DNA from: Thermoanaerobaculia bacterium
GTDB taxonomy: Bacteria > Acidobacteriota > Thermoanaerobaculia > Multivoradales > JAHEKO01
NCBI GenBank assembly: GCA_029287645.1
Contig: JARFQS010000379.1
Location: 1-6,313 of the forward strand
Reading direction: 5' to 3'
DNA: 6,313 nt
Position numbers and translations under genes: made by a program. This document shows positions 353 to 6,313 of the stretch, one piece after another; positions within the stretch are counted from its first letter, which is position 1, and each line of letters starts with the position of its first letter. The notes beneath the pieces were generated by a model, which ran no database searches, was not told the DNA's origin, and was given only the letters and a program-made list of their open reading frames with translations.

Positions 353-1015
353 ATGAGCACGCGAACTCGAGTGGCCCGCTACAGCGTAGCTGAAGAAATT
401 GCCAACAGCATTACACATGGTGTCGGCCTGGTCCTCGCCATCGGTGGGCTGGCGACGCTGACGGCCCTTGCCGCCCTCCACGGCTCGGCGTGGCACGTCG
501 TGGGCTGCAGCATCTTCGGAGCGACGCTGGTTCTTTCCTACTTGACCTCGACGCTCTATCACAGCCTGCCCGCCGCGCGAGCGAAGTCGGTGTTGCGGGT
601 CCTCGACCATTGCGCGATCTTCCTGCTCATAGCGGGGACCTACACCCCGTTCATGCTGGTCAATCTGCGTGGACCTTGGGGTTGGTCTCTGTTCGGTGTC
701 GTCTGGGCGATTGCCGCCCTGGGGATCGTCTTCAAGGTGACCATGCTGCGAAGGTGGACGGCCGTCTCGGTAGCCCTCTACATCGCCATGGGGTGGGTCG
801 TGGTGGTCGCGACCAAGCCCATGCTCGCGGCCGTGGCACCGGGAGGATTGCTGCTCCTGCTCCTCGGAGGCCTGGCCTACACCGCCGGTGTCGTCTTCTA
901 TGCCTGGCGCCGTATTCCTTACCACCACGCCATCTGGCACCTGTTCGTCCTGGCCGGCAGCGTGTTTCATTTCTTCGCCGTTCTCTTCTACGTCATTCCT
1001 CTCGGCACTTCCTGA
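353..1015 (+). CDS. Hemolysin III / TrhA-family (PAQR-like) integral membrane protein
   Basis: The 220-residue protein is almost entirely hydrophobic, with about seven predicted membrane helices, the size and shape of the bacterial HlyIII/TrhA branch of the PAQR superfamily. The family's metal-site motifs are visible: SxxxH at Ser66-His70 (STLYH), Asp85 in LDH, and HxxxH at His192-His196 (HAIWH). The N-terminal ANSITHG and the later AGTYTPF are also typical. Members sit in the inner membrane; homologues are linked to membrane-lipid homeostasis, and the name 'hemolysin' reflects an old assay rather than a proven role. ATG 353 is chosen because it gives the family-typical N-terminus; the ATG at 348 is followed directly by a stop. 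No good Shine-Dalgarno sequence precedes it. The gap to the downstream phosphatase is 32 bases, so the two may share a transcript. Confidence 0.92.
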   Translation: MSTRTRVARYSVAEEIANSITHGVGLVLAIGGLATLTALAALHGSAWHVVGCSIFGATLVLSYLTSTLYHSLPAARAKSVLRVLDHCAIFLLIAGTYTPFMLVNLRGPWGWSLFGVVWAIAALGIVFKVTMLRRWTAVSVALYIAMGWVVVVATKPMLAAVAPGGLLLLLLGGLAYTAGVVFYAWRRIPYHHAIWHLFVLAGSVFHFFAVLFYVIPLGTS

Positions 1016-4569: not shown

Positions 4570-5073
4570 GTGTTCATCGAGCACATTCATCACATCATGG
4601 TTCGGGAGCTGGAAGGCATGAAGAGAGAGATCCTGGCCTACCAGGACGAGGCCGACATCTGGCGATCGGTACCTGGTCTCCCGAATACTGCCGGGACCAT
4701 CGCACTCCACGTTTCGGGCTGCCTGCAGCACTTCGTGGGCGCTCAACTGGGGAAGTCGGGCTTCATTCGGGACCGGGAGGCCGAGTTTTCTCGTCGTGCC
4801 CTTTCCGCAGCCGATATCGTCGAAGATCTGGATGAGGCCATCGGCGCCGTAGATGCGACCTTTGCAGGTCTCGAGGAAGGCGCCATGAACCGTCCCTTTC
4901 CGCAGGAGATCGCGGGTGTCCGCCCCACCGCCGGAGAGTACCTGGTCCACCTGGTGGCTCACACCGCCTATCACCTGGGGCAGATCGACTACCACCGACG
5001 CTGTGTTACCGGGGATTCGTCCACGGCAGGAGTGCTCTCTCCCCGCGATCTCAAGTCTGCCGCAACCAGCTGA
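4570..5073 (+). CDS. DinB-family (four-helix bundle, metal-binding) protein
   Basis: A 167-residue helical protein of the DinB/YfiT superfamily. The superfamily's His triad is visible: His47 in TIALHVSG and His131/His135 in AHTAYHLGQIDYHRR, the second pair matching the usual HxxxH-x-GQ pattern; these bind a divalent metal in characterised homologues. Relatives include thiol-transferases (bacillithiol or mycothiol) and damage-inducible proteins; this one could be a thiol-dependent detoxification enzyme, but no substrate can be read from the sequence. GTG 4570 is preceded by an excellent AGGAGGT (4557-4563) at six bases, so the longer open frame back to 4450 is not used. The stop lies only 10 bases from the 3' end of the opposing MerB-like gene. 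Confidence 0.85.
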   Translation: MFIEHIHHIMVRELEGMKREILAYQDEADIWRSVPGLPNTAGTIALHVSGCLQHFVGAQLGKSGFIRDREAEFSRRALSAADIVEDLDEAIGAVDATFAGLEEGAMNRPFPQEIAGVRPTAGEYLVHLVAHTAYHLGQIDYHRRCVTGDSSTAGVLSPRDLKSAATS

Positions 5074-5083
5074 CGAGGGTGCC

Positions 5084-5830
5084 CTAGTCCAAGCCGAATA
5101 GAGCCGCCTGGCCGATGGGCGAGGAGAATGCGGCATGCTCGAGCGTCAGCAACGCTCCGTCTACGAGCTTGCCGGCTTCGAAGTGTTCCAGAGCGTGGTC
5201 TTCTGACCAGAAGAAGACGCTGTTGTGTCAGTAGGCGTGGATGATGTTGGGTTCACGAAATCTCGGCCAGTCGATCTGCGGCTCGAAGAACATCGGCTTC
5301 GACCCTGCCCGCTCGATCTCGTACCGCATCTCGCTGTCGGCAGTGAACCGTATGGGCTCATCACAGTGGGCACACACCGTGTCGATCGTCGCCTGGGTCA
5401 GTCTGTCGGTCAGTCGCCCTTGCACGAAGGGCGCGATGAAGACATCCTCCGCTCAGGCACCGTACAGGCGTTCACCCGTGCTGAAGGTGAGCTTGTGGGG
5501 AGTCTTGTCGGTGGTAACCGGAAAGGCCCATGAGACGGCTCCTTCGGAGGTCCGGACCAGAAAGAACAGATGGCGCTCGAGCTCGTCGAGGATCTCGACA
5601 ACCCGGGGGAGCGGGATCTCGAACTGGCTGGCGAAGGACCCGGGCGCGATCGGCTTTCCGGTTCGGACCAGCTCCGTGACCGCGGCGCGTCGGATCTTGT
5701 GATGATCGGCGGACATGAATGCGAGCCGCTTGCGCCCCCGCTCGACCGCGTCGAGAACCAGCTGCTTCCACTCGGCTGTTGGGAGCGAGGTCAGGGATCC
5801 GTTCTCGACGATGTGCAGCTCCGGGTCCAT
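5084..5830 (-). CDS. MerB-like organomercurial/alkylmercury lyase with two selenocysteines (TGA recoded at 5453-5455 and 5228-5230)
   Basis: Read from ATG 5830 to TAG 5086-5084 with two TGA codons decoded, the frame gives 248 residues, close to MerB plus a longer N-terminal part. MerB cleaves carbon-mercury bonds using Cys96, Asp99 and Cys159. Here TPHKL then RLYGA-U126-AED129 matches MerB RLYAW-C96-ALD99, and IIHAY-U201-HNSVFF matches the MerB segment C159-CHVHFF counted from the shared FF; SED follows as in MerB. CAHC (153-156) resembles the SHC region around MerB Cys117. So both catalytic cysteines are UGA and the Asp is kept. Each UGA has a SECIS-like hairpin downstream. The N-terminal 80 residues (KIRRAAVTELVRTGKPI, LPRVVEILDEL) look like MerB's winged-helix part. 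ATG 5830 follows GGAGA at six bases; ATG 5851 would add seven residues. A related MerB-like selenoprotein (SaoL) has, as I recall, been reported in Sec-dependent organometallic systems. Substrate and metal are inference. Confidence 0.85.
5192..5221 (-). promoter_or_regulatory. SECIS-like hairpin for the second UGA (5228-5230)
   Basis: On the minus strand, six bases after the UGA, a 30-base hairpin forms: lower stem AGCGU with ACGCU (5 bp), a 2x2 internal loop (CU/CC), upper stem UCUUCU with AGAAGA (6 bp) and apical loop GGUC. The loop starts 19 bases after the UGA. Bacterial SECIS elements, such as the one in E. coli fdhF, have a GU-containing apical loop at a similar distance (17 bases there, loop with GGUC). 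Confidence 0.7.
5415..5433 (-). promoter_or_regulatory. SECIS-like hairpin for the first UGA (5453-5455)
   Basis: On the minus strand, 19 bases after the UGA, arms CGCCCUU (5433-5427) and AAGGGCG (5421-5415) pair perfectly over 7 bp around the loop CGUGC. The loop begins 26 bases after the UGA, inside the range usual for bacterial SECIS elements (about 16-37), and contains the required GU. The element lies within the coding region, as expected in bacteria. Confidence 0.6.
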
Positions 5831-5970: not shown

Positions 5971-6313
5971 ATGGATCTGAAAAGCGTGCTGGCCTCTCTG
6001 GAGGCCGCAGGAACAGCACAGAACCGCAAGGTGTATCGACGCCACGGCGTTGGCGATCCCCTGTATGGGGTGAGCTATGCCATGCAGGGAAAGCTGGCGA
6101 AACAGAACAGGAACAACACCGAGTTGGCGATCGGCCTCTGGGAGACCGGTAACCACGACGCGAGGATCCTCGCCGCCATGATCGCCGACCCTCGAGAGAT
6201 CAGAAGCTCTCGGTTGGATGCCTGGGTCGGGGATCTCGAGAACTATGTGCTGACCGATGCGTTCTCCGACCTGGTGGGCCAGAGCCCGTTCGCCAGGACG
6301 AAGAGCAGGAAGA
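5971..6313 (+). CDS. DNA alkylation repair protein, AlkD-like (5' part only)
   Basis: The frame runs from ATG 5971 to the window end without a stop, giving 114 complete residues. The segments KVYRRHGVGDPLYGVSYA (20-37), GKLAKQ and then ELAIGLWETGNHDARILAAMIADP, LDAWVGDLENYVLTDAF are characteristic of the HEAT-like-repeat DNA_alkylation_repair family (AlkC/AlkD type), DNA glycosylases that remove bulky or cationic alkyl-base lesions such as N3- and N7-alkylpurines. The catalytic part downstream of residue 114 is not in the window. ATG 5971 has GGGAG (5961-5965) five bases upstream. It is divergent from the MerB-like selenoprotein gene with 140 bases between start codons. Confidence 0.85.
   Translation, partial: MDLKSVLASLEAAGTAQNRKVYRRHGVGDPLYGVSYAMQGKLAKQNRNNTELAIGLWETGNHDARILAAMIADPREIRSSRLDAWVGDLENYVLTDAFSDLVGQSPFARTKSRK

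Follow-up and report, generated by a model that had tools for sequence, protein, structure and literature searches.

The window, i.e., the whole stretch of 6313 nucleotides that was analyzed, is one contig of a Thermoanaerobaculia metagenome-assembled genome (MAG; G000) that consists of 638 contigs and is 70% complete. On its minus strand lies a MerB-like gene with two in-frame TGA codons, each followed by a hairpin predicted to act as a SECIS element (Table 1). An earlier note on this DNA had described a minus-strand frame of 248 codons interrupted only by two TGA codons 75 codons apart and ending at TAG, and re-reading of the sequence confirmed this description. The two-TGA frame alone is unremarkable, because 20 stretches of 200 codons or more that are free of TAA and TAG occur in this GC-rich window, each with 1 to 14 TGA codons; the signal above chance comes from homology and conservation and not from the frame itself. 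The gene likely starts at the ATG at position 5830, directly 5' of which a GGAG motif is found, and an earlier start is disfavored by locus L013, where a TGA codon stands four codons upstream of the start of the corresponding gene. The neighboring genes of the window encode a haemolysin III, a histidine phosphatase, a transglycosylase, an HD protein and an acylphosphatase, and three further ORFs had no family match. A DinB/mycothiol-S-transferase-like gene (4570–5073), a possible thiol link, converges on the MerB-like gene and has a counterpart at L013 (1038–1541), and a DNA-alkylation-repair-like gene (5971–6312) is divergent from the MerB-like gene and runs off the contig.

Table 1. Features of the MerB-like gene in the window (positions in the 6313-nucleotide stretch).
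Feature	Position	Strand	Description
MerB-like gene	5084..5830	-	248 codons with two in-frame TGA, then stop TAG at 5086-5084
TGA codon 126	5453..5455	-	predicted Sec at the MerB Cys96 place
TGA codon 201	5228..5230	-	predicted Sec at the MerB Cys159 place
Asp129	5444..5446	-	MerB Asp99 place, predicted proton relay; 16/16 loci
Cys153-x-x-Cys156	5363..5374	-	Cys153 at the MerB Cys117 place; both Cys in 16/16 loci
Hairpin 1, predicted SECIS	5415..5433	-	7-bp stem, loop CGUGC, 26 nt after TGA 126
Hairpin 2, predicted SECIS	5192..5221	-	6-bp upper stem and loop GGUC (5199-5214), 19 nt after TGA 201

The Pfam model of MerB (PF03243) matched residues 106–233 above its gathering score (6.2 × 10−11, 42.8 bits; gathering score 27), and the whole MerB fold was matched over 205 residues; the two NCBIfam MerB models scored below their cut-offs (32.6 of 200 bits for NF033555 and 35.1 of 193 bits for NF009710). 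The active site of MerB is formed by Cys96, Cys159 and Asp99 (PMC4525700, excerpt). In the profile alignment to PDB 3f2g and 5c17, the first TGA codon fell on Cys96 and the second on Cys159, which bears out the assignment made in the earlier note, and the Asp that the note had seen preserved near the first TGA is Asp129, found in all 16 loci compared (see below). Two residues of the canonical MerB signature (PMC8261052, excerpt), Asp99 and Cys117, are present as D129 and C153 in 16/16 loci, whereas the other two, Cys96 and Cys159, are both replaced by UGA in 16/16. Compared with MerB (PF03243; PDB 3f0o and 3f2g), which has Cys at both of these places, the window protein is also about 20 residues longer at the N-terminus and has an additional Cys156, and its gene lies on a 6.3-kb contig without a mer gene. 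MerB2 (PDB 5c17) has Cys in both predicted Sec places and, in the alignment, Ser where the window family has Asp129.

Similar genes were rare in the sampled genomes. In the phylum, 396 genomes including G000 were searched, and 11 of them gave matches (weak ones included): eight places with exactly two TGA codons, two truncated places with one TGA, and two weak matches, of which one had no stops and the other had TAA. Four further loci were taken from named records, namely, L013, L015 and L016 from Acidobacteriota MAGs and L014 from a Chloroflexi MAG. Among 400 genomes of the phylum of L014, four (L014 included) matched at an E-value of 1 × 10−20 or better, and among 399 genomes of the class of genome G121, three (G121 included) matched; all of these had two TGA codons. 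In total, 16 non-repeat loci spanned both places, with pairwise identities of 38–87% (49% on average), and TGA was found at codon 126 in 16/16 and at codon 201 in 16/16. The counts include L007, which begins at a contig end (residue 56), and L015, matched from residue 35, both of which span the two places, while the truncated or deleted loci L008, L009 and L016 entered the comparison of hairpin 2 only. Two loci were excluded: L011, which has TAA stops and whose genome (G375) was absent from the selB matches, and L010. The latter (1501–2031 of the locus, genome G167) encodes a distant MerB-like protein without stops that has Cys at the first catalytic place and none at the second, and its genome carries selA, selB and tRNA-Sec.

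Two protein database searches listed 179 distinct homologues among their matches (105 and 74 more), with 120 of 1725 matches listed in the second search. Ninety-one of these proteins ended exactly before position 126, 43 had Cys126 and ended exactly before position 201, 38 had W at both places, two had W126 and ended exactly before position 201, and five were irregular and apparently frame-shifted. Gene callers appear to cut the proteins of the window family at either of the two UGA codons, and the proteins with W at both places most likely reflect TGA codons that were translated as Trp in gene calling. The earlier note had proposed to look for Cys or Sec at both places in homologues, and the outcome was divided: Cys126 was present in 43 of the 179 listed proteins, whereas Cys201 was present in none of them, only 84 of which extend to place 201 or stop there. 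When the C-terminal part alone served as the query for Cys201 forms, only three candidates were obtained, so that this result has little weight. Homologues with neither Cys nor Sec, which the note had named as evidence against its reading, were limited among those listed to the few irregular proteins, provided that W at both places stands, as is most likely, for TGA. With the listed Cys126 forms, position 126 displays the exchange of Cys and Sec that characterizes selenoproteins, i.e., Sec alternates with Cys at this place, while Sec201 appears to be obligatory and the only residue used there in the window family. The DNA of a Cys126 form was not found in the 400 and 399 genomes, where seven loci, including one repeat each of L014 and L004, were obtained and all had two TGA codons.

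The two hairpins were compared with the published rules for bacterial SECIS elements, which give a loop of 3–9 nt, a stem of 4–16 bp, a spacing of 16–37 nt, G in the first two loop positions and a minimum free energy of at most −7.5 (PMC13188914, excerpt). Loop, stem, G and spacing of both hairpins lie within these limits, and hairpin 2 has an additional lower stem in the window. With the stem enforced in the folding of the 45 nt after each UGA, the energy limit was reached in 16/16 loci at site 1 and in 15/16 at site 2 (−6.8 in L006); the bare stem-loops reached −7.5 in 15/16 loci at site 1 and, as a 22-nt element, in 2/16 at site 2. The window hairpins cut out alone were matched in folding by only 4 and 5 of 200 shuffles, respectively, whereas neither of the whole 45-nt stretches was distinct from shuffles (44 and 21 of 200 folded as well). 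In hairpin 1, 96.4% of the alignment cells were paired, and compensatory changes from C-G to U-A were found at two pairs; its covariation score was reached by 4 of 500 shuffles, and its number of covarying pairs was reached by 179 of 500. In 15/16 loci, this hairpin ranked among the lowest 5% of folding energies within its gene. For hairpin 2, the corresponding result was obtained in 2/16 loci only, i.e., its stability within the gene was not exceptional, and since the 16 letters of its stem and loop were invariant in 19/19 loci, it gives no covariation signal.

For hairpin 2, codon usage provided the stronger evidence. Of the 44 residues with synonymous codons and conservation in 15 or more loci, five were encoded by a single codon in all 16 loci, namely, Phe135, Phe206, Phe207, Ser209 (TCA) and Glu210 (GAA). 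All five lie within the hairpins, where two other residues vary in codon, and none of the 37 residues outside the hairpins was codon-invariant (Fisher's test, 1.9 × 10−5); the same test on the first 11 loci gave 6 invariant codons out of 54, with 0/46 outside the hairpins (1.1 × 10−6). Over the whole genes, all codons of Phe, Ser and Glu were used. Codons are therefore frozen only in the hairpins, which indicates that the RNA is conserved and not the protein alone. An exact 17-mer of hairpin 2 was also found in five viral contigs (L048–L052), none of which had a match to the MerB-like gene, and this is probably a chance occurrence.

The earlier note had also proposed a search for selA, selB, selC and selD in the same genome, and this was answered in part. 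G000 contains selB (645 codons) and selD, the latter having TGA in frame at its GGUAAK motif (L022, G000:C233, TGA near position 2015 of the locus), so that SelD is, from its sequence, likely a second selenoprotein of this genome; searches of this 70%-complete MAG gave neither selA nor tRNA-Sec (selC), its two weak tRNA-Sec matches being tRNA-Ser and tRNA-Gly, but most of the relatives tested have these genes. The selB gene was present in 9/9 genomes with TGA-bearing matches as compared with 256/396 genomes of the sample, a modest association, since this distribution would arise by chance with a probability of about 0.02. The selA gene was found in 7/9 TGA-bearing genomes (missing in G000 and G104), and tRNA-Sec with the anticodon UCA was found in 8/9 TGA-bearing genomes of the 396-genome sample and in 13 of the 15 genomes searched; it was missing in G000 and in G375, the genome with the weak match and TAA stops. 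In genome G203 (L044, G203:C19, 3758–10206), the two-TGA MerB-like gene lies upstream of a small ORF and of selA, selD-like and selB-like stretches, all on the same strand within about 6.5 kb, and a second selA is located elsewhere in this genome.

The gene is probably that of a MerB-family enzyme in which both UGA codons would be decoded as selenocysteine through their own hairpins and a pair of selenolates is predicted to cleave carbon–metal bonds. The reading of UGA as Sec at both catalytic Cys of MerB, put forward in the earlier note, agrees with the alignment, with the 16/16 loci and with the retained Asp. SelB would bring Sec-tRNA to both UGA codons, and the predicted active site would bring together the two Sec, which are distant in sequence. 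By analogy with the MerB mechanism, the selenolates of U126 and U201 would bind R–M (methylmercury or another soft-metal alkyl), D129 would pass a proton to the carbon, and R–H would leave. The metal, which could be mercury or another soft metal, would be held as a bis-selenolate until thiols, perhaps those of the invariant C153/C156 pair, remove it; alternatively, Cys153-x-x-Cys156 may reduce an oxidized Se–Se or Se–S state. Selenols are acidic, and their binding of soft metals is tighter than that of thiols. Such tight binding would favor capture at low concentrations and could slow release.

The principal alternative, unlikely but to be taken seriously, accepts Sec at both UGA codons and assigns the protein another role on the MerB fold, i.e., that of a redox selenoprotein with a diselenide or selenenylsulfide cycle involving C153/C156, or of a metal(loid)-binding selenoprotein that captures the metal. 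The invariant CxxC agrees with such a role, and so does the genomic context. The neighbor scan covered 30 proteins, of which 10 were from the window and 20 from the 55 ORFs around eight other loci (L013 and L015 among the sources), and no mer, transport or sao-like gene was found among them. No MerA match above the family cut-off was found in 18 genomes; 17 of the 18 gave weaker MerA-like matches (the best with 408 of 454 bits, G000 with 388), so that a MerA-like flavoprotein may be present. Thus, with no mer neighbors in the scan and no MerA above the cut-off, no mercury pathway is evident. A conserved operon partner was also considered and rejected: in an all-against-all comparison of neighboring ORFs, the gene order of the window was matched only by L013 and L016, which points to a probably acidobacterial genome, and at the other loci three genes were common to two loci each and none to three or more distant loci (the MerB-like gene itself and overlapping frames are left out of this count). 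Against a purely redox or binding role stand the MerB Asp beside the first Sec place in all 16 loci and the match to the whole MerB fold.

Membership of the SaoL family (NF040728), or direct equivalence to it, is very improbable. SaoL, a component of the SAO system, is like the window protein MerB-like and a predicted selenoprotein (PMC13188914, excerpt), and its NCBIfam model does give a score, but at 24.5 bits this is far from the curated cut-off of 140 bits, and the doubt of the earlier note as to this identity was justified, SaoL being a different family. The two are also set apart by description: SaoL has one Sec in a CU motif (PMC13188914, excerpt), whereas the window family has two Sec places, preceded by Ala (125) and by Tyr or Phe (200) in 16/16 loci. 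As to SAO transporter neighbors, the 30 neighboring proteins scanned included no ABC transporter. Two Sec per bacterial protein are also found in the UxxU selenoproteins (FmdB-like; NF041115), and the table of the same review holds further families with two Sec; in the UxxU proteins, however, both Sec belong to one short motif (PMC13188914, excerpt), whereas in the window gene they are 75 codons apart and each has its own hairpin.

The same very low probability is given to a decaying gene or a sequencing error, with the TGA codons as nonsense mutations. The MAG is fragmented, and a possible sign of decay, which in close relatives the earlier note had named as an argument against its reading, was seen in one of two near relatives. 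L016 is without about residues 22–135, either through an assembly fault or as a decayed copy, and its C-terminal half retains TGA 201 and hairpin 2 (1100–1500 of L016), whereas L013 is intact and under purifying selection. The dN/dS ratio between the window gene and L013 was 0.228 before, 0.256 between and 0.228 after the two TGA codons; therefore, the parts past each TGA are selected as protein, which, together with TGA at the same two codons in 16/16 loci, opposes decay. Reassignment of UGA to tryptophan or another residue in the host, suggested by W at both places in the 38 listed proteins, is scarcely credible, given that TGA serves as the stop codon of other genes in the window (353–1015 and 1048–1632), that tRNA-Sec with the anticodon UCA was found in nearly all of the genomes searched, and that the hairpins and the Cys/UGA exchange fit Sec.

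The broader proposition, towards which the balance leans modestly, is that the carbon–metal lyase reading extends to a widespread, as yet unnamed family of bacterial organometal lyases with a selenolate pair, in which Sec would be obligatory at the Cys159 place and exchanged with Cys at the Cys96 place, each with a frozen SECIS element. No report of a MerB with two Sec was found in the selenoprotein and MerB literature covered, a scope outside which the Haft 2023 and 2025 papers lie. A census of MerB that demanded Cys96, Asp99, Cys159 and Cys117 apparently included 0 Acidobacteria and 7 Chloroflexi (PMC8261052, Table 1, excerpt); as UGA stands at two of these four required residues, such a census would miss the window family. 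If the proposition is true, the family would be a natural di-selenol version of MerB in Acidobacteriota and Chloroflexi and would point to demethylation of mercury, or of another soft metal, that goes unnoticed because it lies outside the mer system and the census. A catalytic centre built from two sequence-distant selenocysteines would be unusual, and the apparent replacement of both metal-binding Cys of a well-understood enzyme would allow a clean test of the role of selenium in the cleavage of carbon–metal bonds. Because gene callers appear to cut such proteins at UGA and a Cys-requiring census skips them, the spread of organometal breakdown in uncultured bacteria may be greater than estimated.

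A mobile-element origin of the gene was also considered and rejected, as no phage match was found; one plasmid match (Simkania; 28.5% identical over 58% of the query) lay under a feature annotated as merA. A GNAT acetyltransferase was met in two places: in the database protein P0062, it is fused to a MerB-like protein that has W at both places, and at L014 the MerB-like gene is followed, after about 1.4 kb, by a GNAT gene.
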